Shown one piece after another: positions 10,127-33,804 of a DNA stretch of 40,526 nt (positions are counted from its first letter, which is position 1; each line of letters opens with the position of its first letter). Under the pieces are notes generated by a model, which saw only the letters and a list, made by a program, of their open reading frames with translations, searched no databases and had not been told where the DNA came from. The translations under genes and the position numbers were made by a program. Origin of the DNA: an uncultured Bacteroidales bacterium (GTDB lineage Bacteria > Bacteroidota > Bacteroidia > Bacteroidales > WCHB1-69); assembly GCA_946407715.1 (NCBI GenBank), contig CAMJPH010000010.1, positions 1 through 40,526 on the forward strand, read 5' to 3'.

Positions 10127-13100
10127 ATGAAAAAACTATTATCAATTTGCTTTCTAAGCATGCTGCTGGGGCTTTTGAGCTTCGGCGTTAGGGCGCAGAG
10201 CGATGGCTGTAAGAGTGGTTTTTGGATTGAGAACCTTCAACCCGATACCATTTACGGCGTTGTGAATATGCCGCCCACGGGCAAATTACCGTTGATTCAT
10301 ACGTTGGGTCAAGGAGTGTTCAATTCCGCGACCAGCGTATATCAAGGTAATGCCACAGTTGGTAATACCGAACTGTACGAGTTGCACTTCTGCAACACGT
10401 GTGGTTTGGATCCCAAAACCAAGGTCTCCCTCGACTGGGTGCTTTTGCGCGATGGTGAGGTAGTAAATGACAATCTCTCCGATTATGTGGATTTTGACAT
10501 TTACACTTTCTACAACCAGCTCAACCAGTATGGTGAGTGCCAGTCTATCCGTTGGTTAGGCGGTAGAGTGAATGATGGATTCGGTTACTGTACTCCAGTG
10601 TCGGATTCATACACTCTTCTTGATACTATCCTTGGATTGAACGGACCTTGCCGTGATCCGAACAACTATCCTGGTGCTACGATACCTACCCATGGTACTC
10701 CTTACAGCATTCTGTCACATGTCGGACAAATTATCCCGGCTGCTGGTCAGGTCAGCATTTACAGTCAAAATCATGATTTCTTCTATCTTGACTTCTTTGA
10801 ACAGACCAGAAACTATGTCGTCCTCAAATGGAAACAAGCTGGTAACTATAAATTAGTAATGCGCGTGCGTCAACGCCTCGGCGGTACTGATTGGACTAAC
10901 GAATATTGGAAAGTGAATGCCGATGGCACACTTTCCCAAACTGATTATGTCGGTGGTCACCAGTCTTGCTGCGGCAACGTCTTGGTAGAGGATACTATCG
11001 GTTATCCTATCTTTGGCGAAGATTTCAAGGAAGTGTGTGCTGATGAAAACGCACTGGATCCTTTCACATACGGTCGTCCGCCTTATACGTTCACCGTCAC
11101 GATGCCTGATACCAATGTCGCTTTTGGCGAATTCAGGGGAGATGCAAGCACGGATTGCTACCATTTCCATACCGACAGTGTGAACCGTTTCCATTTCTTC
11201 ATTCGTGAGAACCCGCAAGTGCAAGCTCACGACACTACTATTTGCAGATGTGATGACTTCAACCAAAATTCCCTAAACTCATTAGTGACTATCGCTGACA
11301 CCGCTAACAAGGGTGTTGTTTCAGTTAAACTTGAATGGGCTACTTCTGCCTCTGGTCCGTGGTCTGAGACCACTCCAATTCCGGGTTCCAATGTCGGTAC
11401 CTATCATTATTATGTTCGTCAGACCAACATCTACAGAACAATAGAGTGTACAGGCCCGGCCGCCCCGATTACTTTGACTATCAAGCAAATTCCTGCTCCG
11501 ACGGTTACGCCCAACCATTATGATTTCTGTAATGAGGGCAACGAGCTCACCCAGACCCTTACAGCTAATCGTGGCGATGACGACTGCTCCACCACGAGCG
11601 TATGGTTCCTTGATGGTGATTCGGTTTATACGGGAGATGCTTATACGGTCAACTTGGCAGCCATCAGACCTGCCACCAATATGGACCATACAGTCACATT
11701 CGTCGTTAAGGCTTACAATGCTGCTACCAACTGCTATTCAGTGGCTTCCAGCAATGTGACTATCACGTTCCACCAGACCCCGCAAATCCACCTCAGCTAT
11801 GAACCTGTTATTTGTCCGAAATCAGACACAGTGGCTTTCACCATGCAGGTTATTTCTGGTCAGACGGAGGCTCCTTACACGGTGCAACAGATTTCTGATT
11901 TTACTGCTAACTATAACAGCACGCTGTCTGCCGCACCTTACAATCAACTGACGAAATATGGCAAACCTTTCACCAAGATAACAGATTTTGAGTGTGGTAA
12001 CACATATCATGTCTATTATACGGTTACGGATGCCAATAATTGTGTTGTGAAAGACACCGCTACTTTTGTAGCTAACGATACTATTTCTCCTGTTGTCACC
12101 CCCGCTAGCCAAACCAAGGTTTTGGACCAGTGTAATTTTGAAGGTGAAAATCTTCCTGAGGCGATTACAGATTTGAATGTGTTCCTCCTCCCTGGATTTG
12201 GTCATCCGGCTCTTGTCACAGACAACTGTGGTATTGATCACTTCACTCACAAGGATACCACCTATGCTTCAGAGACTGACACTTGTGAGAATATTTTGGT
12301 GAGAACCTACACGTTCTATGACTATTGTAACAATACCGCTACATTCACTCAGACGTTCATCGCTCACGACTCTACCGCTCCTTATTTTGCAGGACTGCCC
12401 GGCAGACCTCTCTATCAGCGTTTGGAACCGAAGCGCGGTGAAAATTGTACGTTCAACTCTCTTTCCAAGGCTGAGTTCGTTATGGCTTTCCTCGGTAAGG
12501 TTCAAGACGATTGCGTAAATTTCGATTATGATTACCTTTATAGCCATGCTGATTTCTATTGGGAGAATTCAACCCGTTTCGGTCATGTGTTAGCATACGA
12601 TAGCCTTGACATCTTCAGAGAATTTGAAGAAACTGTATGGGTGGACGGCAATAAACAACTGACCGTCGAAGTTGTGGTTTGGGATGACTGCGGTAACACT
12701 TCTGATACCTTGGCATTCTACTTCGAACCCGACTCTCTTGTTCTCGAACCCGGCATCACGATTGATCCCGACAGAATCTGTTTGGGCGACACTTCTTATC
12801 TGTCTTTCGACTCTACAAAAGTTAGTTATACTCACTATGAGTTGGCACATCCGCTCTCATTTGCATGGGGCAGCGCAGATGCTGACATCAATTTCGATGA
12901 TCCTACCAATGTGAACACGTTCGTGGTTCCTGGTACTGGCGATAAGACTTATCACGTCAACATGACGGTCAGCGATGCATACGGTTGTACGGTATCTTCT
13001 GATTCTGTGGAACTCTATGTCAAGTCCGCTCCGGTGATGAAGATTATCCCTGTGACGGAATATGGTTTGCAACCTCCGTATTGTCCTACCATTGGTACTG

Positions 13101-16100
13101 TCCACTTGGTGGCTGTGAGTGCTGTGGATTCCACTTTCGTTCCGAATCTCTCATACGTGTGGACTTCCACCCAGAGTTTGGATGTCTCTGCTCGCGGTGA
13201 TACAACTCGTCTTTATGTGATTCCTGATTCTTGTACTTATATATACGATGCGCAGGTCTTCGTGACTGACACCATTTACGGTTGTACAGCCGAGGCCTCC
13301 ATCCTTGTTCCTGTTGAGGATCAGGCTCCTCAATATATAGGCGGCCCGCATGCCGATACAGCATACGTTGGACCTGGCTGTGAGATGAAAGTGACTGATT
13401 TCACGCACTATGTGACACCTGCCACGATTGACAACATTTGTGGTTGGGGATTCAGCCGCTATACCATTTGGCAGGAACCTGCTGTTGGTACTGTTATTAC
13501 AGAGGAGACCCCTGTCTATGTTTATATCTTGACTCCTTGTAGTGAAGATACTGTGAAGATTTTGGATAAGTTTAAAAACATTCCTGATAGCAGTAGAATT
13601 AGTGTTTTAGCATCCGTTCAACCGTTGGAAGGCTGTTCTCCTGTGACGTTCAATTTCACCGCTACCACAGAAAAGGCTGTTGGTGTGCCGACTTACCAAT
13701 GGACGAAAGGTACCAGCACTGCAGTGATTTCCAACGCACAGTCATTCTCTCGTACAGAGGTTACGGAAGCAGGTCAGATGGAATCTCACTATACGTTCAA
13801 TGTTAAGGTGACAGATCCGGTGACCAACTGTACGGCTACAAGCAGCGTCCAAGTTGCTGTTTATGATTCTCTTCCTGTTCCTAACTATGAAGTGTTCCCG
13901 AACGATCGTTGTTTGCCTGTTTATAACGGCCTTGTCCGTCTGATTAATGTTCCCCGTGGTTACACATACGAACTGTTTAGCGATGATAATCTGGTTGACG
14001 CTATCAGAACGCAAATTCCCGCTCTGGATTCAGAAGTTGATACCACCTCTATCATTTTTGATGAATTGGAAGGTAATCTTGAATATCTTGTGAAGATTAC
14101 TACGATTCACGGATGTGTGACAAGATTCAACGTCTTTGTTCCCGATTCTGCCAAGAATCCTGTCTTCGTTGACGAAGTCACCCCGCATAATCCTACCTAT
14201 TGTACTAACAATAACGGATGGATTGAAATTGACAAACAACCTGGTTTCGTCTATTATTTGTTCAAGGCATCTGCTCCTAATGAAGAGATTTTGGAGCCTT
14301 ACACTAACCTGACTCCTGGTGATTACAATGTTTACAAGTATGATCTCAATACCGATTGTGACACTTTCATGGTTGTTACGATTGGCTCTTCCACCAATGG
14401 TCTTGAATTCACGGTTGCCGCTACGCCGAATACGCTTTGCGGTGGCGAGAATTTCAATGGTACACTCACTTTCTCACAGCCGGGTATTCATTATGTGGTT
14501 ACCAATACCGCTGGTGAAACCTTATATGATGATATGAATGGTGTACTTACTGGTTTGAAAGCTGATACCTATACGGTTTTCGGTACTGATAATACCACTG
14601 GTTGTACGCATTATGAGTATCCTGTGATTACGGATTCCACAAGCAATCCTTCTTTCACTGTCGAACCTCATGCTAACCAATATTGTGATAATGCGGCTGG
14701 TACTGTTAACGGTCATGTGACGATTACTGCTGCAGGTTCTAATTATACGTATGTATATTATAATGAAGACTCCACCGTTGTTGCAAATATCAATGCTCTT
14801 GCTGCTGGTAATTACTTCGTTGTTGCAACTGATGCGAATGGATGTACTACCACTGAGGATTTCTCCATCTCGAATGACACGCATATCGTCACTGCTACAG
14901 CTACTTCCACTGTGAATTCAAGTTGTGACAGCTCTATTATGGCTTATAATGGTACAGTTAAGATTAAGATCAACTATTATATTTCTGCTTACCATTATAC
15001 TGTCATCTTGGAAGGTGTTGACACGGTTGTGAATGCTTCTCTTAATACTACATTCAATAATCTGAATGCCGGTACATATAAGTATATCGTGAGTGATAAG
15101 TTTATGTGTGTGGACAGCGGTTTTGTTACCGTTGGACAAGCAGAACTTCCTCCTCTTCAACTCGTTCAGACTCCCAACACGATGTGTGAGGGTACGTTTG
15201 ACCGTCCGGGTAACGGCACGATCACCGTCCTTCCTCCGTATGACGATGCCGCCAGCGGAAACTTCGCATACGCTTATTTCTATGCACCTAAGGACTCTTT
15301 GAAGCAAGGCGATTCATTGCATGTGGACTACCATAATCTCTCCAAGACCATGTATCATTTGGTAGATACTTGCTACTATGTCACCGTTTTGGATCACCGT
15401 ACTGGATGTAAGGTTTACGACACAATTACCGTTGAACTTGGCCGCGATACGCTCATTATCACCGGCGATCCCACTCCTAACAAGAACTGTATTGCTCCGT
15501 TCACCGGTAGCATCCAATGGCATGTCACCTATAAGAGATATGCGTTCGACTATGAACTCTATCCTTACCTTGCTATTCCGGATCCTGGTTACCGCTTCAG
15601 CATTGACGGTGGTTTGACTTATCAGACCGACAGCCTGTTTACTGGTCTCCAAGAGGGTGATTACTATGTCACTGTTATTGATACTACCACGGGTTGTGTG
15701 ACTACGATTGATGCTCCTGTCACCGTCGAGAAGACCCCGAGTGATATTGTTGTTGTTCCTACAGTTAATCACAATCATGCTTGTGATCAAGCTCTGTATG
15801 ATGGTTCTATTTCAGTTCATGCTACCAGTGAGATGTTCAACCCTGCTGGTTATGAGTTCAGCTTCAATGGTGGTGCTTTCGGATCAGACACCATGTGGAC
15901 TTCTCTCGGTGCAGGCAGCTACCACATTGTTGCACGTGATACCATTTCAGGATGTGAGGGCTTCGTAGATGTTATTATTGAAACAATAAATGAATGTGTT
16001 CCTGTTCCTCATATTGATTCCCGTGACTTCTGCCTTAACGAGGAGGGTGCTACCTTGACGGCTACCGCTACTCTGCCCGACGGCTGTGAGAACAGAGGTT

Positions 16101-19100
16101 TCAATTATAAGTGGTTCAAAGAGTGTCATGCTGACACTTTGTACGGAAGCACTATTGATGTTGCTACCGATGAGGCAGGATGTTGTTTATACTTCGTAAC
16201 GGTTACAAGCATTGCAACGGGTTGTACTGCAGTAGATTCCGTGAATGTTTGCGTGTATGCTCCTGGAACTATCACTTACACTGTTGACGGTACTCCTATT
16301 ACGGGCAACAGATACGACAACTGTGAGAACAAGTCCCTTACGATTGGTGTTGTTCAAAATGGTTGGGTGAATGCTTGGTGGACAATGAACCATACTACAG
16401 TTCGTCCGGATGACGAACCTGAATTTGACTTCTTTGTCAATGTACCTGACTCTATTGCAAAATATGCCGACAATCCTTTGAAGTGGAATGTGACTTACGA
16501 TGTGGATAAATTTGTTACTTTCTGTCTCGATGTGTTTGACATCCATGGTTGTCATGCTCAGGGCAGATTCAACTTGGTTAACCATCCGCTGGTTTATGAC
16601 ACGATCAGAGATACGCTGTGTGAAGTTGTTATCACCGAAGATATGACAGCCAATCTTGAGGCTGCAGAGTTAACTGCTTTAGAGGCTGCTTTGGCTGCCG
16701 GTACGATTACCTATCCTTATACGATTACTTATTCAATGACATTCCCGCGTACATTGGCTGAAGGTTGTGACAGCATTGTTACATACGAATACTTGTTCCT
16801 TGGTATTCCTGAAATGGTTAATGATGTGGAAGATTCCTACTGCTATGGTGTAACGTTTGGCGATATTAAGTCTCATGTCACCATCACGGGTGCTGTTGAA
16901 GAGAGTATCAAATATTATTTAGGCGATGTTGAAATCACTGATCCGAGCTATGTGTTTGCTCACAGTGCTGATCAAGTGATCTTAACAGTTGAATTTAACT
17001 CTGGTAAAGAGCAGTGTGGTGAAGTTTATCCTATTTCGTTCTATGTGGATTCTATTCCTGAGTTCATTGATGATTTAACGATAGATACTATGTGTGCAAA
17101 TGGTCGTCTTCCCATTACGTTGCCTAACTATGAATGCCACCACCATGTTGCCGATTCTTGTCACCTTGATATGATCTTGGTTGACTCTACGGCTACCGAA
17201 ATGGTTACGTACCTTGGTAAAGACTTAACTGGTGTTTCCTATTTGATCCCGTCTATTCCGATGTCTTACAATGGTAAGTATTTAGGATTCATTGTGAGAA
17301 ATGAGTGCGGTGCTGATACAGTATTGGCAAAACTCGTTGTTGACACGCTTCCTAAGGGTAAAGTTAATGTGAATGCAATTTGTGCCGGCGAAACTTTGGA
17401 TGCAAGCTGGGAATTGTTGAATCCTGACGATGTCATTTCGTCTGTTATCGCTACTCCTTACGTTAAGAAAGTTGGTGAGACTGACTTTGCAGAAATGTCC
17501 AGTACTGCTGTTGTTGACTACAGTTATAATGGTGCTCTGTTGTACTATGAGTTATTGAGCAATTGCGGTTACTCTCGTACAGACACTGCTGAAATGACTG
17601 TTAACAACAAACCTACTATCACGATTGTTGGAAATGATCTGAATGTATGTTATGCTGATTTTGATGCACAATTCTCTGCAAACTTTGGTTATTCGATTAC
17701 TAATTTGGATGGTTCTGTGATTCTCTATTATGAGCCTGAGATTGATCCTGATGCTGCATCTATTTCTGTTAACAATGTTTTGTCTAACGGTTCCCCGATT
17801 ACTGCCCATGGTTGGTTGTTATGTGAGGCATCTACTTCCGCTTCTGGTGTTGCTGCCGAATACACCTACACTCCTGTCACTGTTCCTCAAATTAAGGAAC
17901 TGGCTCTCGCCTCTGAAACTCCTATTATGATTAAGTATTATGCCACGAATGCTTGCGGCTCTGATACTGTTGGACCTTATCCGATTTCTGTTGATAGTCT
18001 TCCTGATTTAACTATAACAGCCGGAACGATTTGTCCTGACAAACAAATTTCTGAGGTTGTTACTCACAGTGTTGTTTGGAATTCAGCTCCTGGTAGTATT
18101 TCTTATGTGGCTGTTAAAGAAGGTGTTGTTGATTTTGCAGCTTCTTCAACCACCCTGTTTAGCGATCTGCTTGCTTCTTACAATGATGGCGAACTGCTCG
18201 TGATTGCTGAGAATGACTGTGGCGCTGATACAGAGCGTGTGGCATTGGCTATCCCAACGTATGTAATTACGCCTGGTTCTGTGGTGCCGGCTTGTACTGG
18301 ATCTGAATGCAGTCTGTTCATTGAAAACGCTCCTACTATCACGGTTTCTAATATGACTGCTACCGATATGGGTTGGTTCAAGACCACAACTGGTACGCCG
18401 AGCGAAACTGATGCAGCCATTACTACTGAGACTGTTGTGGATGAGGTTATTTGGATTTACAAGAAGTGGATCACTTCATGTGAGCAAACCGTTACCTCTT
18501 CACCTATGCAGCTCACGCTCCTCACTGCTCCTAAGGTCAATATTGATGACATCAAGATTTGTGCAGGTTCCACGATTGATCTCGCCAACGCGAATTACAA
18601 TGTCACTGATTTAGTCACAGGTGTTACTGTTGAAGAACCCACTTGGACGATCAACGGCGAAGCATTTGATGCTACTACTGAGTATGGTTATGAGTATAAT
18701 GGTGCATCTCTTATTGCTACCGCTCAATCAACTTGCGGACCTGTTGCCGATACATCAGTGGTGACAGTTATTCCTTCTCCTGTTGTTGCAGTTACAGGTA
18801 CGGATGTTTGTGAGTATGATACTGTTAAATTTGTTGCTACTCCTGACACTTATGTTTCATATACTTTCCAATTGGACGATGAAACCCCTGTTACACAAAT
18901 AGGTAATAATATTTATACTATTAATGAGGGTTTAACTGCAGGTATGCATACGATTAGTGTCACCGCTGTTAGTGAGACTGATGGTATTAGTTGCTCCAGC
19001 GCAACAGCAGGCACTGCAATGGTGAAAGTCTCCGATGCTCCTGAATTTATCTTCAAGACAATGGATGGTGTTGAGACTCATAAATTCAGAAGCGAGACTG

Positions 19101-20125
19101 GCCAAGGTTTGTCTTACATTTGGATGGTTGATACAACCTGTAATGATGATGACAAGCTGGTGTTTGTTGAGTATTATATCTATCATTGTGCCGACACTAC
19201 TGTTCCTGCTAATGAACGCGTATATCAATTGCTTGATAACGATGAGACTATCAACGATTATATCTGTGTGTTTGAAACAGGATCTGGTTCAGTTAATAGA
19301 TATAAATGGACAACCAGAAACACATTCTCTTGGAATGCTTTGGATGGTACTGCACTTCCTCCTTTCACAAATTATTACCAAAGCGGTGCTCCTAAACAGC
19401 TCACTACAATTCCTGCGACTGCTTCGTATAACCAGTATGGTACCCACTTCCCGTATGGTAACTTAAATTACACTCAAGCTACGAACTATTTCGATGATTT
19501 CTGGATGCATTATCTTGTTAATCGTCCTATCAATCAGGATATCACATCCTTTGTCCAATCTGGTGAATATAAGATTGTTTTCAAATTGTATTCTACCACG
19601 ACCGAAGTGTTGTACAATATTTATTACCGTCGTTTCACGGATTCGGATAGTGTTAATTATGTCCCATGGGTTCCTGGTTCTGACAATCGCGATGTCCAGA
19701 TTGGTGGTCATGCTTCTCTTGTGGGTAATCCTACGCTTACACTTCTTGCTATTGACTCTATTTCAATTAGCGTTGATGGTGCTCCTGCGGAATGCTCTCC
19801 TGTCACCTCGGCTCCGAGTCTTGCACCTGAGTTGACTGTTGACGAGACAGAGGTTGCTCCTGATATGGAAGTTTGGCCGAACCCTGCTCCTGCAGCTACC
19901 ACCACGCTGAAGGCTCGTGTCCACAATATGAACGGTAATGCTACTGTTACTTTGACGACACTCGGCGGTAAGCAGGTTTATGAAGGCAATGTTTACATTG
20001 ACAATGACAATTACTATTTCGAGTTCAATGTCAACAGTCTCAGCGTTGGTTCATACGTTATGACCGTTCGCACGGCTGATGCTATTGTCACTAAGAAAGT
20101 GATTGTTACGGTCTTAGCACATTAA
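10127..20125 (+). CDS. Giant (3332-residue) multidomain surface protein with T9SS type A sorting domain
   Basis: This is a predicted secreted or surface-anchored adhesin-like protein. It has a signal peptide (MKKLLSICFLSMLLGLLSFG, then VRAQ) and a C-terminal T9SS sorting domain from about residue 3245 (MEVWPNPAPAATTT, then YVMTVRTADAIVTKKVIV). In between are repeats. Residues about 650-900 contain HYR-like units (DNCGIDHF, TYTFYDYCNNTATF, DSTAPYF). About 1250-1955 hold eight SprB-like repeats of 80-100 residues, each with a Cys near the start and ending like LAAGNYFVVATDANGCTTT or LQEGDYYVTVIDTTTGCVTT. About 2300-2950 hold PKD-like repeats opening with forms such as VDTLPKGKVNVNAICAG and TAPKVNIDDIKICAGST. 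SprB is the gliding adhesin of Flavobacterium. No enzyme motif was seen. It follows the PorE-like gene and ends at a strong terminator. Confidence 0.9.
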   Translation: MKKLLSICFLSMLLGLLSFGVRAQSDGCKSGFWIENLQPDTIYGVVNMPPTGKLPLIHTLGQGVFNSATSVYQGNATVGNTELYELHFCNTCGLDPKTKVSLDWVLLRDGEVVNDNLSDYVDFDIYTFYNQLNQYGECQSIRWLGGRVNDGFGYCTPVSDSYTLLDTILGLNGPCRDPNNYPGATIPTHGTPYSILSHVGQIIPAAGQVSIYSQNHDFFYLDFFEQTRNYVVLKWKQAGNYKLVMRVRQRLGGTDWTNEYWKVNADGTLSQTDYVGGHQSCCGNVLVEDTIGYPIFGEDFKEVCADENALDPFTYGRPPYTFTVTMPDTNVAFGEFRGDASTDCYHFHTDSVNRFHFFIRENPQVQAHDTTICRCDDFNQNSLNSLVTIADTANKGVVSVKLEWATSASGPWSETTPIPGSNVGTYHYYVRQTNIYRTIECTGPAAPITLTIKQIPAPTVTPNHYDFCNEGNELTQTLTANRGDDDCSTTSVWFLDGDSVYTGDAYTVNLAAIRPATNMDHTVTFVVKAYNAATNCYSVASSNVTITFHQTPQIHLSYEPVICPKSDTVAFTMQVISGQTEAPYTVQQISDFTANYNSTLSAAPYNQLTKYGKPFTKITDFECGNTYHVYYTVTDANNCVVKDTATFVANDTISPVVTPASQTKVLDQCNFEGENLPEAITDLNVFLLPGFGHPALVTDNCGIDHFTHKDTTYASETDTCENILVRTYTFYDYCNNTATFTQTFIAHDSTAPYFAGLPGRPLYQRLEPKRGENCTFNSLSKAEFVMAFLGKVQDDCVNFDYDYLYSHADFYWENSTRFGHVLAYDSLDIFREFEETVWVDGNKQLTVEVVVWDDCGNTSDTLAFYFEPDSLVLEPGITIDPDRICLGDTSYLSFDSTKVSYTHYELAHPLSFAWGSADADINFDDPTNVNTFVVPGTGDKTYHVNMTVSDAYGCTVSSDSVELYVKSAPVMKIIPVTEYGLQPPYCPTIGTVHLVAVSAVDSTFVPNLSYVWTSTQSLDVSARGDTTRLYVIPDSCTYIYDAQVFVTDTIYGCTAEASILVPVEDQAPQYIGGPHADTAYVGPGCEMKVTDFTHYVTPATIDNICGWGFSRYTIWQEPAVGTVITEETPVYVYILTPCSEDTVKILDKFKNIPDSSRISVLASVQPLEGCSPVTFNFTATTEKAVGVPTYQWTKGTSTAVISNAQSFSRTEVTEAGQMESHYTFNVKVTDPVTNCTATSSVQVAVYDSLPVPNYEVFPNDRCLPVYNGLVRLINVPRGYTYELFSDDNLVDAIRTQIPALDSEVDTTSIIFDELEGNLEYLVKITTIHGCVTRFNVFVPDSAKNPVFVDEVTPHNPTYCTNNNGWIEIDKQPGFVYYLFKASAPNEEILEPYTNLTPGDYNVYKYDLNTDCDTFMVVTIGSSTNGLEFTVAATPNTLCGGENFNGTLTFSQPGIHYVVTNTAGETLYDDMNGVLTGLKADTYTVFGTDNTTGCTHYEYPVITDSTSNPSFTVEPHANQYCDNAAGTVNGHVTITAAGSNYTYVYYNEDSTVVANINALAAGNYFVVATDANGCTTTEDFSISNDTHIVTATATSTVNSSCDSSIMAYNGTVKIKINYYISAYHYTVILEGVDTVVNASLNTTFNNLNAGTYKYIVSDKFMCVDSGFVTVGQAELPPLQLVQTPNTMCEGTFDRPGNGTITVLPPYDDAASGNFAYAYFYAPKDSLKQGDSLHVDYHNLSKTMYHLVDTCYYVTVLDHRTGCKVYDTITVELGRDTLIITGDPTPNKNCIAPFTGSIQWHVTYKRYAFDYELYPYLAIPDPGYRFSIDGGLTYQTDSLFTGLQEGDYYVTVIDTTTGCVTTIDAPVTVEKTPSDIVVVPTVNHNHACDQALYDGSISVHATSEMFNPAGYEFSFNGGAFGSDTMWTSLGAGSYHIVARDTISGCEGFVDVIIETINECVPVPHIDSRDFCLNEEGATLTATATLPDGCENRGFNYKWFKECHADTLYGSTIDVATDEAGCCLYFVTVTSIATGCTAVDSVNVCVYAPGTITYTVDGTPITGNRYDNCENKSLTIGVVQNGWVNAWWTMNHTTVRPDDEPEFDFFVNVPDSIAKYADNPLKWNVTYDVDKFVTFCLDVFDIHGCHAQGRFNLVNHPLVYDTIRDTLCEVVITEDMTANLEAAELTALEAALAAGTITYPYTITYSMTFPRTLAEGCDSIVTYEYLFLGIPEMVNDVEDSYCYGVTFGDIKSHVTITGAVEESIKYYLGDVEITDPSYVFAHSADQVILTVEFNSGKEQCGEVYPISFYVDSIPEFIDDLTIDTMCANGRLPITLPNYECHHHVADSCHLDMILVDSTATEMVTYLGKDLTGVSYLIPSIPMSYNGKYLGFIVRNECGADTVLAKLVVDTLPKGKVNVNAICAGETLDASWELLNPDDVISSVIATPYVKKVGETDFAEMSSTAVVDYSYNGALLYYELLSNCGYSRTDTAEMTVNNKPTITIVGNDLNVCYADFDAQFSANFGYSITNLDGSVILYYEPEIDPDAASISVNNVLSNGSPITAHGWLLCEASTSASGVAAEYTYTPVTVPQIKELALASETPIMIKYYATNACGSDTVGPYPISVDSLPDLTITAGTICPDKQISEVVTHSVVWNSAPGSISYVAVKEGVVDFAASSTTLFSDLLASYNDGELLVIAENDCGADTERVALAIPTYVITPGSVVPACTGSECSLFIENAPTITVSNMTATDMGWFKTTTGTPSETDAAITTETVVDEVIWIYKKWITSCEQTVTSSPMQLTLLTAPKVNIDDIKICAGSTIDLANANYNVTDLVTGVTVEEPTWTINGEAFDATTEYGYEYNGASLIATAQSTCGPVADTSVVTVIPSPVVAVTGTDVCEYDTVKFVATPDTYVSYTFQLDDETPVTQIGNNIYTINEGLTAGMHTISVTAVSETDGISCSSATAGTAMVKVSDAPEFIFKTMDGVETHKFRSETGQGLSYIWMVDTTCNDDDKLVFVEYYIYHCADTTVPANERVYQLLDNDETINDYICVFETGSGSVNRYKWTTRNTFSWNALDGTALPPFTNYYQSGAPKQLTTIPATASYNQYGTHFPYGNLNYTQATNYFDDFWMHYLVNRPINQDITSFVQSGEYKIVFKLYSTTTEVLYNIYYRRFTDSDSVNYVPWVPGSDNRDVQIGGHASLVGNPTLTLLAIDSISISVDGAPAECSPVTSAPSLAPELTVDETEVAPDMEVWPNPAPAATTTLKARVHNMNGNATVTLTTLGGKQVYEGNVYIDNDNYYFEFNVNSLSVGSYVMTVRTADAIVTKKVIVTVLAH

Positions 20126-29054: not shown

Positions 29055-30152
29055 TCATCGAAAACAAAGGCACACCGCAAACACTAAAACGCCCAAAACA
29101 AGGGAGATAATCCAATAAAGGGTTCCATTCTCTTCTGACATGTTAGTGCCCAAATACTTGAAATCTTTGAATTCCTTCCGTTTCCAGCTATCTAAATGGG
29201 TGCGCATCCACCTCACAAAAGCAACAAGATCCAAATCTTTATGTGCAATGAAATAGTCTCGCGTTTTTAGCCCCAATGTGGGCAAATCCATCCAGCTGAG
29301 AGCTTCACACCACTTCACTTTCTGACCGCTGACTCCCAAACAGACCACAAACTCATTCTTATTCAATCCTTTCCAGTAATCACGTTGCTTTTGGGCAACT
29401 TCTATCCCCTTTTCAGCCTGAAACAAAAGGATGAATACATGTATCTCGTGCTTCGAACCCATAAATGCGTTAAGCCGTTGCAGTTCGGAATTGGCACGCT
29501 CATAATCTCGTGGTTCGGAAAGAACCGCATCATAGAGGATAACCTTTTGATCGTCATAGAAGCTTATACTAGGGTACTCGAAAAGCCCAAGTTTCCGCAC
29601 TTGCACATTATCAATAAAATTGCTTTTGTACAAAGACTTGGAATAGCGTACAGGGTTCTTATACTTGTGTGTGTAGGTAATGGTTCGGGTATCTAACTCG
29701 TTTCCATTCCAGTTGCATCGTTGCCCACCTCCTCCAGAGACACAATTATGATGATAAGTTTCAAAACAGTGCAATGTGGTTTGCCAGCGTTGACACATTT
29801 CGCGAAACAGATACTTTGGAATATTTTGCTCCCTGCCCGTGTTCAAATACCACAGCCACTCATCGGGATGCTCCACATACCTAACCTTTTCCTTCGTATA
29901 AGAGTTGCCTTTCTCGTCGTATTTTGTCTCTTTCTCAACCACTTTCTCCTTCCATGCATTCAGATGAACCACTTGAACAACATAACCGCTCAGATATTCC
30001 TCCGCTCTGGAAAAGAAATAGAACATAACAGCTATGATGCCCTCGGCGAATGCAGTAACCAGCAGATAGACCCACCAATTATCAGGGTCAAGGTTGAAGA
30101 AGAACGCAACAACCAGTCCTACTATCGGTATGGCATAAGAGAGATAGTACAT
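29055..30152 (-). CDS. Membrane protein of unknown function, after a LemA-like gene
   Basis: I do not recognise this 365-residue protein. Two hydrophobic helices lie at the N-terminus (YAIPIVGLVVAFFFNL and VYLLVTAFAEGIIAVMFYFF) and one at the very end (LYWIISLVLGVLVFAVCLCF). The central 270 residues are soluble, with mixed alpha/beta character and a Gly/Cys patch (HHNCVSGGGGQRCNWNGNE). Later segments IHVFILLFQAEKGIEVAQKQ and GSKHEIH could be part of a Rossmann-like core, but no catalytic motif is evident. It starts 11 bases after the LemA-like gene and probably shares its transcript, so the two products may form a membrane complex. Confidence 0.7.
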   Translation of the reverse strand: MYYLSYAIPIVGLVVAFFFNLDPDNWWVYLLVTAFAEGIIAVMFYFFSRAEEYLSGYVVQVVHLNAWKEKVVEKETKYDEKGNSYTKEKVRYVEHPDEWLWYLNTGREQNIPKYLFREMCQRWQTTLHCFETYHHNCVSGGGGQRCNWNGNELDTRTITYTHKYKNPVRYSKSLYKSNFIDNVQVRKLGLFEYPSISFYDDQKVILYDAVLSEPRDYERANSELQRLNAFMGSKHEIHVFILLFQAEKGIEVAQKQRDYWKGLNKNEFVVCLGVSGQKVKWCEALSWMDLPTLGLKTRDYFIAHKDLDLVAFVRWMRTHLDSWKRKEFKDFKYLGTNMSEENGTLYWIISLVLGVLVFAVCLCFR

Positions 30153-30163
30153 TGTCCCGTGTG

Positions 30164-30685
30164 TTATAACGACAGAACATCATTGTCCACGCGGGTCTGC
30201 ATCACGTCATTTGTCTTATCGGAGGCGACAACAGTGTATTCTATCGTTTGTTTGTTGGTGATGAAGAATTTGGCGGGCATGTTGTTCAGCAGGGTCTCCC
30301 TTTCGCGGATGATGTCAAGCATACGCTGCTGCGATCGCAGGAAATAGATGCGCTGGGCTTCAATAGATTGCATCAAATCCATGTACAAGCTGGTGTTGAA
30401 ATCGGGATTGGACTCCTGTATCCATTTCATGCCCGATGCAGCATCGTTGGCATAGCGTCCGCTGATCATTTCAGGATAGACCTTTTCAAAAGTCTCCCGG
30501 TACTTTTCGGCAACGCCAGCTTTTTCTTTGATGATTTTCCACACCGCATCGTGGATGCTGGTGATGTTCTTGTTCTGCGCCTCCGCCTCCTTTCGAAGTG
30601 CCACCTCCCTATTATTGTAAGCGAAGAACATGATTAGCAGGACGACGGCGATAACAATGATGATGGTGATGATAATGTAATTCAT
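30164..30685 (-). CDS. LemA-like membrane-anchored protein
   Basis: The 173-residue protein starts with one strong transmembrane helix (MNYIIITIIIVIAVVLLIMF), then a long alpha-helical region: NREVALRKEAEAQNKNITSI, VWKIIKEKAGVAEKYRETF, SIEAQRIYFLRSQQRMLDII. It ends with a conserved-looking beta tail (PAKFFITNKQTIEYTVVAS). The single N-terminal helix, helical bundle and YNxxE-type entry are like LemA proteins, but the classical RRxDLIPNL segment is not present, so this is a distant or separate branch. Function is unknown. It lies 83 bases after the 99-residue gene and 11 before the membrane protein. Confidence 0.65.
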   Translation of the reverse strand: MNYIIITIIIVIAVVLLIMFFAYNNREVALRKEAEAQNKNITSIHDAVWKIIKEKAGVAEKYRETFEKVYPEMISGRYANDAASGMKWIQESNPDFNTSLYMDLMQSIEAQRIYFLRSQQRMLDIIRERETLLNNMPAKFFITNKQTIEYTVVASDKTNDVMQTRVDNDVLSL

Positions 30686-30768
30686 ATTTTTGTGAATGGT
30701 GATTAATGAATTGTGAACTAAGAGATTATCTGTATGCTAGGGGATTGTTTTTTCCACGTCTTTTTTTG

Positions 30769-31068
30769 TCATTCCTCAACCTCAGTCGGATAAAAGACCT
30801 TCAAGAAGCGTCCGTTCAGCATTATCTGCTGGTCTCCAGCATCCAGTACTGTTTCTGTACCGTTCTCTTGGCTGGTCATACTGCTGATCCGAATATGGCG
30901 GCCTCTTGTTGGAATGGCTAAAGAAACGCCCTCTTCATCCTCTTCGCAAAGAGACAACGGCTCAATGGGCCAATAATCAACATGGGTGATTTTAATACAC
31001 CGTGGCCCTTTTCTCGAAAAGGTGGTTGATGAAGTTTTGTATTTGGGATGAGGTGAATGGTTGCTCAT
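30769..31068 (-). CDS. Hypothetical 99-residue protein coupled to the SelO-like gene
   Basis: I recognise no family. Its ATG overlaps the TGA stop of the preceding gene (ATGA), which suggests translational coupling and argues that it is real. The first 25 residues are polar and basic; after that come beta-strand-like segments (RCIKITHVDYWPIE, GVSLAIPTRGRHIRI, QQIMLNGRFLKVFYPTEVEE) with one acidic loop (CEEDEEG). There is no signal peptide or membrane helix, so it is probably cytoplasmic. Confidence 0.55.
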   Translation of the reverse strand: MSNHSPHPKYKTSSTTFSRKGPRCIKITHVDYWPIEPLSLCEEDEEGVSLAIPTRGRHIRISSMTSQENGTETVLDAGDQQIMLNGRFLKVFYPTEVEE

Positions 31069-31901
31069 ATTTTCATTTTTTCAAGATTAAAACCATAATC
31101 AAAAAATAAACCGTCAATCTGTTTAAAATCAACTGCTTCTCTTAAAACTCCTGCAATGTAGTTGATGATGACGTAGGTTTGGATAACTTCACGATCGTAA
31201 AGCGAGGGCACGTGACGCTCATAGTCAGCCTTTTCGTATGGGTGCTGCGGCGTGCGACACAATTCAAAGTCGAGCAGTTCCAGTGCCCATGTATAATTCT
31301 GCTCATGAATGGCGTTATGTAGCACCTCATGGTCGTGCATGATTCGGAGATTGCGTATCAGCATTTCGGCAGCGACAAGATGGTTCTGCCGCCAACCTGA
31401 TCGATTGTATTGTTGCCACTTGGCCACTTCAGCCTCAATCTGTTCCTTTTCCATAAAGGCGGCATCACTGATGCGATAAGGACACTCCACACTGTATTGA
31501 AGCAGGCAGGGCTTCAAATCCACACCTGTTTCTTTTATGTGAATAGAATAATCTAACTCCAGCACACACTCCATCCAGTTGGTTTTGACGCCCAAGGCCT
31601 GCACATCCTGACCACAATGGAAATCTCGCAACGCATCCTCTTTGAGCAGCAACCCCTACACGTCCGTGGGCATTTCGGGCGTGTAAAGGAACGAGTACTG
31701 CGAATAGCACAACCCGTTCCCCTTGCTTACAATGTAACGACCGTCATCGTGCCGCCCTACAACGAAACTGCGGCCGTGCAAGGGCGTAACAATGTTGACA
31801 CTCTCAATTCCATCAATATCCTTAAGAAAGGGGAAACGCATCTGGTTTCCCCTTTGTTTTACGACGGAATAAGATATTCTACTGTTCGTTATTTTCTTCA
31901 T
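31065..31901 (-). pseudogene. SelO/kinase-fold-like protein interrupted by an in-frame TAG
   Basis: Two open frames of 81 and about 196 codons lie in the same frame, separated only by one TAG at 31656-31658 and a GGG codon. Read through, they give one 278-residue protein. The pattern resembles the nucleotide-binding part of SelO-type pseudokinases: GRYIVSKGNGLCY, then LLLKEDALRDF with ALGVKTN, LLQYSVECPYRISDA, and a catalytic-loop-like VLHNAIHEQNYTWALELLDFE. SelO enzymes transfer AMP to proteins. TGG (Trp) to TAG is the simplest origin of the stop. The likeness is motif-level and from memory. The gene start overlaps the 57-residue ORF, and its end overlaps the 99-residue gene. Confidence 0.6.
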
Positions 31902-32052
31902 TGTATAAATCTTCCATATTTTGCATAGCTTTTTCTGCCAATTCTTTTAAGGGATAAGTTTTTCCTGTTAACTCATATTGTTTTGTTACCTCATTCCATC
32001 TTCCTATACCATACAGTTCTATATCGAGGGGTATAACATTAAACTTTTTCAT
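31879..32052 (-). CDS. Small 57-residue protein in the RiPP locus
   Basis: This short ORF starts MKKFNVIPLDIELYGIGRW and ends in an acidic tail (MEDLYNEENNEQ) before a TAG. Its last 23 bases overlap the start of the SelO-like gene in another frame, which suggests coupled translation. It begins about 21 bases beyond the T-run of the terminator that follows the precursor gene. It has no Cys, so it is less likely than its neighbour to be the modified peptide; a small partner or second substrate is possible. Confidence 0.55.
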   Translation of the reverse strand: MKKFNVIPLDIELYGIGRWNEVTKQYELTGKTYPLKELAEKAMQNMEDLYNEENNEQ

Positions 32053-32072
32053 TTTACGTACTTATTTAAATT

Positions 32073-32108
32073 AAAAAATCATGGGTGACGAGAACACTTC
32101 GTCACCCA
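32073..32108 (-). terminator. Terminator or attenuator just after the precursor peptide gene
   Basis: On the minus strand TGGGTGACGA pairs with TCGTCACCCA around a 7-base loop, and after TGA comes a run of six T. It begins 12 bases after the precursor stop and lies before the 57-residue and SelO-like genes, so some transcripts should end here, leaving more precursor than downstream message. Confidence 0.8.
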
Positions 32109-32120
32109 CATTCATAATGA

Positions 32121-32225
32121 CTAGCTCATACGATAGTTGATACCGCATGTGGTCTCAGACCATTCTGGACATTTGCCCATAGCAATCACGCGGCTCTGTT
32201 TTTTCACTTTCAATTCTACTTTCAT
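32121..32225 (-). CDS. Putative RiPP precursor peptide (34 residues, two Cys)
   Basis: This tiny gene encodes a basic leader-like part, MKVELKVKKQSRVIAMGK, followed by CPEWSETTCGINYRMS with Cys at 19 and 27 and Trp at 22. It starts 46 bases after the stop of the radical SAM/SPASM gene on the same strand and is closed by a hairpin terminator, the classic setting for a modified-peptide precursor. The likely chemistry is a radical cross-link involving Cys or Trp (thioether or cyclophane), but which one cannot be read from the sequence. I recognise no known precursor family. The start is the only ATG giving a leader; a Met at residue 16 is the alternative. Confidence 0.65.
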   Translation of the reverse strand: MKVELKVKKQSRVIAMGKCPEWSETTCGINYRMS

Positions 32226-32271
32226 TTCGGTAAAATTTTAGCGGTTATAGGTGTACTGCGGGAGACACCAT

Positions 32272-33804
32272 TTATCCCATTGTAGCATATTGGCGTCGCA
32301 GCATCACCTTGGCCTTCGGCAGTGCCCGTAACGCTTGTACAAATTCTTGTCCGTTGAGAGGATCGAAACCTTCCATCATCTTGTGTGCCAAATTGTAACG
32401 TATTTTGGCCATATAGCAACAGTTTTCGGCTGGTTTGCGCCAGTCTCCATGCTCCATCTGACCATGTCCAGGACAAAGATTGCAGTAATCGCAATAGTCA
32501 TGGCGACCACAGTCTGTGAACTGCTGCAACGAGTGGGTTTGCCATTTTTGTAAGGAATCGTTGTGAGATAAAACATTGGATAAACTGTCGTTCTTCAGAT
32601 TACCAAACGACAATGGGAAAGCACAACAAGGTTGCAGGTTCCCGTCGGGTGTAATGCAAAAACTAGTCATTCCTGCTCCACAAGCAACATTTTTCAAATT
32701 GCGGGGATAACCGCCATAGTTGGGCGCTTCTGGACCCACATATAGCGGAATGTTGTCATCGCGCAGCACCACGTACAGTTGTTCCTCTGTCAGACGGAGC
32801 TGGCGGGCACAGATGTCGCCTTCGTTCGAATCGGAAATATTGATTTCGAACTGTGGCTGCGCACCCAATTTGAATGCCAAATCAGCCACCGTATAATAAC
32901 TGTGCAAGTTTGGCTGCATCACACAACACTTGATATTCATCGGCACGGCCAGTTCGGAAAGACGATTCACCACATTCATGGAACGTTCCCACGAACCGGG
33001 TATGCGAGTAATGGCATCATGATCCTCAGCAACACCGCTGTAGATACTCACTCCCACTAACCGTGGATAGTAATCAGCAAGTCGTTCCACATCGTTTACA
33101 ATGCGTTGCCCATTCGTAAAGACATCAAAGGCTATCTCCTTCTGGTACAAGTAGTCAATAATATCCCAAGCTATCGGCTTGGAGAAAGGGTCACCACCAG
33201 AGAGACAGACTTTCACAAGTCCAGCATCGTCAAGTTCATCAATGATACGTTTGTAGTTATGCAGTTGCAATTCCTCTCTGTCGCCTCTATGCGATATTTC
33301 ATCGTCATTGCGAGTTGCACCGGGGTTATAGCAGTGGATGCACTTTTCGCTACAGTTGTAGGTCAGCTCAAACATCACCGATGTGACTACACCGTCTGCT
33401 TCAACAGCTTCGTAGTAGGCTTGTTCAGCGTTGGATGTTTCCATCGGCAATTTTTCTTGGGTGGTTTTCTCCACCGATTGTTGTTTTCGCTTGAAATCAG
33501 CCAGTTGCGTACGATAGCGGAGAATATCATCTTTTGTTGGAAGCTTGCTGACGAGCAATCCCAGTTCCACAAAATATTGGAAAAAAGGCTCGACACTCTC
33601 TTCGGCGATTCCAGTTGCACGAGACACTTCTTCAATCGATACATTCGCATTGCGTTTTACCTTGAGAACTCGACCAACCACATCGGCAGAGTAGCTATCA
33701 AAAAAATAGCTGTAACCAGCGATAAGATTATACATCAACGCCACATGTTTTTCTGCATTGTATCTTCCGCAAGTCCACTCTGGACGAAAATACGTTCTTT
33801 CCAT
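32272..33804 (-). CDS. Radical SAM/SPASM peptide maturase with N-terminal PqqD-like region
   Basis: This enzyme would use a [4Fe-4S] cluster and S-adenosylmethionine to make radical-based modifications on a peptide. The radical SAM motif is C151-x3-C155-x2-C158 in YNCSEKCIHCYNPG, followed by a GGDP-type SAM segment (CLSGGDPF, about 203). The SPASM region holds C375, C383, C393/C394 (ACGAGMTSFCITPDGNLQPC) and C432, C438, C441, C444 (CGRHDYCDYCNLC), with C462/C463 behind, enough for auxiliary clusters. Residues about 35-90 (DVVGRVLKVK, VSIEEVSRATGIAEESVEPF) look like a PqqD-type recognition element that would bind the leader peptide. The 34-residue precursor gene follows by 46 bases. Confidence 0.88.
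   Translation of the reverse strand: MERTYFRPEWTCGRYNAEKHVALMYNLIAGYSYFFDSYSADVVGRVLKVKRNANVSIEEVSRATGIAEESVEPFFQYFVELGLLVSKLPTKDDILRYRTQLADFKRKQQSVEKTTQEKLPMETSNAEQAYYEAVEADGVVTSVMFELTYNCSEKCIHCYNPGATRNDDEISHRGDREELQLHNYKRIIDELDDAGLVKVCLSGGDPFSKPIAWDIIDYLYQKEIAFDVFTNGQRIVNDVERLADYYPRLVGVSIYSGVAEDHDAITRIPGSWERSMNVVNRLSELAVPMNIKCCVMQPNLHSYYTVADLAFKLGAQPQFEINISDSNEGDICARQLRLTEEQLYVVLRDDNIPLYVGPEAPNYGGYPRNLKNVACGAGMTSFCITPDGNLQPCCAFPLSFGNLKNDSLSNVLSHNDSLQKWQTHSLQQFTDCGRHDYCDYCNLCPGHGQMEHGDWRKPAENCCYMAKIRYNLAHKMMEGFDPLNGQEFVQALRALPKAKVMLRRQYATMG

Follow-up and report, generated by a model that had tools for sequence, protein, structure and literature searches.

A radical SAM/SPASM maturase and its adjacent 34-residue peptide as a candidate RiPP family of gut Bacteroidales, with a SelO-like protein in many loci

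In a stretch of 40,526 nucleotides from an uncultured Bacteroidales bacterium (GenBank assembly GCA_946407715.1, contig CAMJPH010000010.1, positions 1–40,526; the whole stretch is called the window here), the gene for a radical S-adenosylmethionine (SAM)/SPASM enzyme is followed by a gene for a 34-residue peptide and by a gene resembling the pseudokinase SelO. Is the peptide the substrate of the enzyme, as in the pathways of ribosomally synthesized and post-translationally modified peptides (RiPPs), and does the SelO-like protein act on the product? The initial annotation, made from the letters of the window, had suggested both. Comparison of homologous loci strongly favors the first: the enzyme very probably modifies the adjacent peptide, and the two would form a new RiPP family. 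The second is more tentative.

We collected 50 loci with a homologous maturase by scanning genome contigs. In 42 of these, the same peptide family is encoded within approximately 350 nt downstream of the maturase gene; in the window, the peptide ATG lies 46 nt past the maturase stop codon. A strict C-terminal motif of the peptide has a downstream match in 40 loci, and L011 and L030, with one motif residue altered, complete the 42. When all six frames of the 50 loci and the window were searched, the strict motif gave a single stray match (L043). In L028, the peptide is present but truncated by a stop codon. Five loci (L014, L016, L042, L046, and L049) encode a different short peptide at this position, and these peptides, L046 perhaps excepted, begin like a leader; the contigs of L013 and L050 end before it. 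The homologue comparison thus upheld the peptide as the conserved neighbor of the maturase, the point on which the initial annotation had let its proposal stand or fall.

The alignment of the window peptide with the 42 others (A1, n=43) showed that L5, S11, C19, C27, and G28 are invariant, and R32 is present in at least 90 %. The arrangement C-x7-C-G is kept in 42 of the 43 peptides, that of L044 having one extra residue; in these 42, residue 31 is Tyr (37), Trp (4), or Val (1). Cys, Trp, and their spacing had been singled out beforehand as features whose conservation should be checked. Both Cys residues and the spacing held up, as did the aromatic–Arg end, but W22 of the window core varies. 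No Pfam or NCBIfam model matches the window peptide (E≤1), and neither does any GG-leader model. The proportion of nonsynonymous differences was below that of synonymous ones (pN<pS) in 80 of 82 peptide-gene pairs, which are not independent of one another (pS 0.02–0.6; means 0.31 for pN and 0.50 for pS). By this measure, the peptide gene looks translated and under selection.

The peptides behave as a leader joined to an exchangeable core. Most members carry the leader consensus MKVEL-x-[IV]-S-x-x-S; the window has KVKKQS. The L014 and L016 peptides retain the leader (MKIELKVS..SNV), and their C-terminal end is NFTQQAHCSWYFAPMK. In the genomes of these two loci (G006 and G007), the peptide profile beside the maturase matches positions 1–18 only, which is the leader. 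Their maturases pair with each other (100/100) inside the class I maturase clades (97/96 and 100/99). The maturases of L046 and L112–L114 form one clade (100/100), and all four peptides have a Cys-rich core; those of L112–L114 share similar starts, such as MKDVELKPS. Directly downstream of the L070 maturase (35 % identity), the sequence MKSKFKIAKTSYYAVN...GCSCDSAPKNHG is encoded. The core classes on the maturase tree were assigned by hand. As read from these sequences, a constant leader with a changing core is the mode of evolution of RiPP precursors.

The association extends to whole genomes of gut bacteria, many of them from cattle, sheep, and horses. Of 20 home genomes of the loci that were searched, the 17 of class I each contain a single strong match to the peptide profile (E<1e-12), and the next best match anywhere had an E value of 0.006. 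Among 393 genomes drawn from the order, for which up to 20 candidates per genome were scored, the profile matched five, and all five carry the maturase. The maturase itself was found at E≤1e-25 in nine of the 393. Six of these copies are at least 44 % identical, namely those of the five peptide genomes and of G007; the other three are 35, 28, and 23 % identical. Within a family sample of 173 genomes, the maturase is present in 12, and all 12 have a peptide (seven class I, three Cys-rich, and two of the L014/L016 type). A second family sample, of 301 genomes, has the maturase in eight, six of which have the class I peptide.

The maturase matches PF04055 (E 6.8e-16) and the SPASM family PF13186 (E 3.6e-8), both above their cut-offs. 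Cys151, Cys155, and Cys158 of the CxxxCxxC motif are invariant, as are Cys residues 375, 393, 432, 438, 441, 444, and 463. In the predicted structure, residues 10–85 (approximately) form a winged helix of three strands and three helices, and the fold alignments to SkfB and SuiB span this region. The N-terminus had been called PqqD-like; the structure model has the PqqD fold, but a Pfam PqqD sequence match is absent. The maturase matches 57 NCBIfam families, among them the mycofactocin maturase model (E 6e-25) and PqqE (E 1e-17). Its best NCBIfam score is 94.6 bits against a cut-off of 500 bits; the mycofactocin equivalog TIGR03962 gives 88.1 bits against a cut-off of 265, and the PqqE equivalog cut-off is likewise not reached. 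Identity is 63 % or higher for each of the best 120 database homologues. Judged by sequence, the enzyme represents a SPASM subfamily of gut Bacteroidales for which there is no curated model.

From these features, we infer the following pathway. The leader would bind as a strand to the N-terminal PqqD-fold domain of the maturase. SAM would be cleaved at the CSEKCIHC cluster, a hydrogen atom would be abstracted from the core, and the auxiliary clusters of the SPASM region would take the electron away. A ring would then close, either as a thioether from Cys19 and/or Cys27 or as a C–C link to the [YW]31-R32 end. The two invariant Cys residues are compatible with Cys-to-carbon thioethers, as in sactipeptides and ranthipeptides. 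Where lineages encode an M42 aminopeptidase, this enzyme would trim the modified peptide; elsewhere, a housekeeping peptidase would do so. In many lineages, the modified peptide would then be handled by a small ATP-binding protein of the SelO fold.

In the window, the gene of this last protein is interrupted by a stop codon, and the SelO-like step may therefore be lost or misread in this genome. The closest relative found for the 195-residue piece, a protein of 300 residues, shares 94 % identity with it, so intact SelO-like copies exist; the TAG of the window may be peculiar to this genome or result from faulty assembly. Twice in this system an in-frame TAG interrupts an otherwise conserved gene, here (31656–31658) and in the peptide gene of L028 (about 10596–10697); decay, assembly error, or readthrough may each account for these stops. 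A full-length SelO-like gene is present in 30 of the 50 loci (tblastn finds 31, one of which is a fragment).

Fold comparison bore out the proposed likeness to SelO and found a SelO-type kinase-like fold. Homology to SelO by sequence was rejected as a basis: the L001 protein has no Pfam SelO match (E≤0.1), and the PDB profile search matched kinases at E≥0.5. The nucleotide and metal residues given for Pseudomonas syringae SelO are Lys113, Glu136, Arg176/183, Asn253, and Asp262 (PMC8097203). In the SelO-like protein, K62, D95 (Glu to Asp), and R145 align to such sites and are invariant; one of the two Arg residues was found. N204 and D213 were assigned by motif spacing alone, and this is a motif reading because the automatic alignments place the catalytic-loop Asn and Asp out of register; three alignments misplace both. 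The short SelO-fold family comprises 1,125 proteins at E≤0.001, and the 120 listed are all without a Pfam domain. Ordinary SelO was absent from all 60 sampled Bacteroidales genomes. At the level of the modeled fold, the SelO-type partner is real, and within the sample it is restricted to peptide-bearing genomes. A nucleotidyl-transfer or ATP-dependent reaction is a plausible assignment for its step, although it falls somewhat short of being the probable one. That a minimal SelO-fold enzyme AMPylates (or nucleotidylates, with NAD or ATP) the radical-SAM-cyclized peptide, with an M42 version in sister lineages, is a speculative proposal that we rate as rather unlikely in this full form.

Several observations weigh against the pathway as drawn. 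The class I core is very constant, above what is usual for a diversifying RiPP, and no core Ser or Thr is invariant. Of the three more distant maturases of the order sample, L070 (35 %), L071 (28 %), and L072 (23 %), the search for a peptide covered L070. In the 301-genome sample, no recognizable peptide stands beside the truncated L105 or the distant L106. The 25 most frequent of 54 downstream Pfam families include no transporter, whereas a secreted RiPP would usually have one. Of the 48 loci with downstream sequence, 18 lack a full-length SelO-like gene, and two of these 18 (L024 and L025) offer just 1.8 kb downstream. The profile alignment of the SelO-like protein with true SelO has an hhalign probability of 0.1. 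Five loci that all have the SelO-like gene carry Trp (L001, L003, L006, and L009) or Val (L011) at residue 31; therefore, Tyr31 cannot be a general AMP acceptor.

The constancy of the class I peptide, its C-terminus included, would suit a peptide that serves the radical SAM enzyme as a small chaperone or regulatory subunit, the true substrate of the enzyme lying elsewhere. We consider this very improbable: the core is swapped wholesale while the leader is kept (L014/L016 and the Cys-rich clade), the Cys pair is invariant with fixed spacing in 42 of 43 peptides, and the SPASM/RiPP recognition element (RRE) architecture is peptide-modifying in characterized relatives. The SelO-like protein could also be a frequent passenger outside the peptide pathway, given the 18 loci in which other genes stand in its place, the split gene of the window, and a peptide core that lacks an invariant acceptor. 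However, the four genomes of the 393 that have a SelO-like protein all bear the peptide (they are four of the five that do), and each has the two on the same contig; the gene also persists where maturases have diverged widely, to as little as 45 % identity in L045. A passenger therefore seems unlikely to us.

What the product does is a separate matter. It might be an intracellular cofactor or metallophore, made in the manner of mycofactocin or pyrroloquinoline quinone (PQQ) by modification of C-terminal residues and peptidase release, with no export. The single strong match in each class I home genome, the lack of a transporter in the downstream families, the M42 aminopeptidase of eight loci, and the matches to the PqqE and mycofactocin maturase models agree with this, and the conserved C-G-[IV]-x-[YW]-R end resembles that of MftA, which ends C-G-V-Y. 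Yet cores differ wholly among related maturase clades, which a shared cofactor would hardly tolerate, and the occurrence is rare and patchy (5 of 393 genomes); we doubt this reading. A secreted antibacterial or signaling peptide of gut Bacteroidales, sactipeptide- or ranthipeptide-like and exported by a general system, would explain why cores diversify between clades, and small variable neighboring genes could encode immunity. The maturase has the thioether-related SkfB and 5wgg among its closest matches by fold and by PDB sequence, and the Cys pair is conserved. This reading is a somewhat unlikely one, as the class I core is strikingly conserved, unlike an arms-race bacteriocin, the window peptide lacks a GG leader match, and no ABC exporter appears in the 25 families. 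The strength given above to our favored reading applies to the relation of maturase and precursor.

The features of the window are listed in Table 1. All of the open reading frames (ORFs) named initially are present on the minus strand at the positions given. The SelO-like ORF overlaps the 57-residue ORF as described (by 23 nt), but it is divided by the in-frame TAG.

Table 1. Predicted features of the maturase locus in the window.
Feature	Positions	Strand	Basis or remark
Radical SAM/SPASM peptide maturase, 510 aa	32272–33804	minus	PF04055 and PF13186 matches
Precursor peptide, 34 aa; leader ~1–18, core ~19–34 (CPEWSETTCGINYRMS)	32121–32225	minus	Family conservation
Terminator- or attenuator-like hairpin and U-run, 3' of the peptide gene	~32073–32113	minus	Folding energy
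RWNE-type small protein, 57 aa, in the variable slot	31879–32052	minus	Relatives in L008 and L039
SelO-like pseudokinase, N-terminal piece, 81 aa, HGRS motif	31656–31901	minus	Terminates at in-frame TAG 31656–31658
SelO-like pseudokinase, C-terminal piece, 195 aa; helix C, N-x8-D loop; same frame as first piece	31065–31652	minus	
99-aa protein, ATGA overlap with preceding gene; sporadic cargo	30769–31068	minus	
LemA-like membrane protein; sporadic cargo	30164–30685	minus	48 % identical homologue in L037
365-aa membrane protein beside LemA-like gene; sporadic cargo	29055–30152	minus	31 % identical homologue in L037

The window hairpin has a folding energy of −19.2 kcal/mol (z −4.2). A hairpin with z<−2 follows the peptide gene in 38 of 45 sequences (44 loci and the window), compared with 4 of 45 controls taken 200 nt further on. 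Such a hairpin would hold the transcript of precursor and maturase above that of the downstream genes. The slot after it is occupied by at least four unrelated small-protein families across the loci, including the RWNE type. A proline-rich protein of 46–61 residues with KPxxPD repeats was seen in the post-peptide slot of L001, L006, L009, L030, and L048; four of these five copies end in PGK[KR]VL.

The genes further downstream vary. Those reported initially are present but sporadic: the 99-residue protein has relatives in 2 of 50 loci, and the LemA-like pair recurs in 1 of 50. The C-terminal half of the former is related to 183-residue proteins that follow the SelO-like gene in L007 and L008 (E 4e-8 and 4e-9). 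The LemA-like gene and its 365-residue partner recur jointly in L037 (E 5e-52 and 2e-55), where the LemA-like homologue is downstream of the SelO-like gene. The name LemA-like itself found no backing, as Pfam and NCBIfam give no LemA match at E≤1. A place for these cargo genes among the core parts was unsupported; the largest families after the maturase are the SelO-like protein (32 of 51 loci, window included) and a kinase-linked protein (21 loci). These counts come from a simple ORF picker and perhaps underestimate small-gene families; a further 26-locus group of kinases and other proteins joined by partial similarity was left uncounted. The kinase-linked protein, of a family associated with Ser/Thr kinases, has 24 matches in the 20 home genomes. 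Seven of these lie no more than 5 kb from a family maturase (G002, G004, G006, G007, G011, G014, and G020; roughly 0.1 expected at random), and the gene in G020 adjoins a paralogous maturase of the Cys-rich type. A kinase–regulator pair may therefore belong to the wider system in some lineages. None of the ORFs around the window maturase grouped with this family.

An M42 aminopeptidase is encoded in eight of the 50 loci (tblastn; L012, L019, L020, L022, L023, L024, L025, and L034), where it occupies the SelO-like position; L022 retains a SelO-like fragment, and a 320-residue protein comes next in five. Among 93 downstream proteins, raw counts include NADAR (3), ADP-ribosylglycohydrolase (L001), Macro (1), and DUF3990 (1) domains; together these hint at a connection with NAD or ADP-ribose.

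Rfam and tRNA scans of the window were empty. A single scan of viral contigs gave no relative, leaving a viral origin unsupported. A defense system was considered and rejected: the PADLOC matches of the maturase reflect viperin-type radical SAM similarity (best E 6.6e-13), and PADLOC has no match for the SelO-like protein. Elsewhere in the window, the plus strand carries an ORF of 3332 residues (10127–20125) for which Pfam gives a single match at E≤1e-4, a weak one that falls short of its cut-off, to a Por secretion-system sorting tail (E 9.3e-5); the product is possibly a giant secreted surface protein.

The closest known systems differ from this one in several respects. SkfB, 5wgg (which we take to be CteB), and SuiB, of sactipeptide, ranthipeptide, and streptide biosynthesis, share domain order, fold, and a short precursor beside the maturase. 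However, their identity to the window maturase in fold alignments is 13–20 %, and the present family has its own precursor (C-x7-C-G-[IV]-x-[YW]-R) and its own partner genes. The mycofactocin and PQQ pathways each use a single short precursor, a SPASM maturase, an RRE, and a peptidase. The same parts are found here, but the RRE is fused and the core is different. The protein adenylyltransferase SelO/YdiU (PF02696) has 478 residues, whereas the SelO-like protein has 284, lacks the C-terminal region, has Asp in place of the helix-C Glu, and is linked to a RiPP maturase. The Bacteroidetes graspetide and GG-leader radical SAM clusters (PMC8939145, PMC10352776) are alike in hosts and in combining a SPASM enzyme with a short peptide, but neither an ATP-grasp nor an ABC exporter is found among our 25 most frequent downstream families. 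One study reports 22 unexplored SPASM pathways (PMC9062424), with which this family may overlap; the main text of that report, as accessible, contains no words starting with Bacteroid or SelO. Within open-licence publications, we found no paper uniting radical SAM, RiPP, and SelO. The expectation of the initial annotation that no described family has this set of genes agrees with the curated families searched and the literature reached, from which the combination is absent.

The locus offers a complete and testable enzyme–substrate pair, of 510 and 34 residues, in a SPASM subfamily that curated models do not cover. The short SelO-fold family gains a probable partner, and tying a SelO-type enzyme to one substrate could reveal its role.

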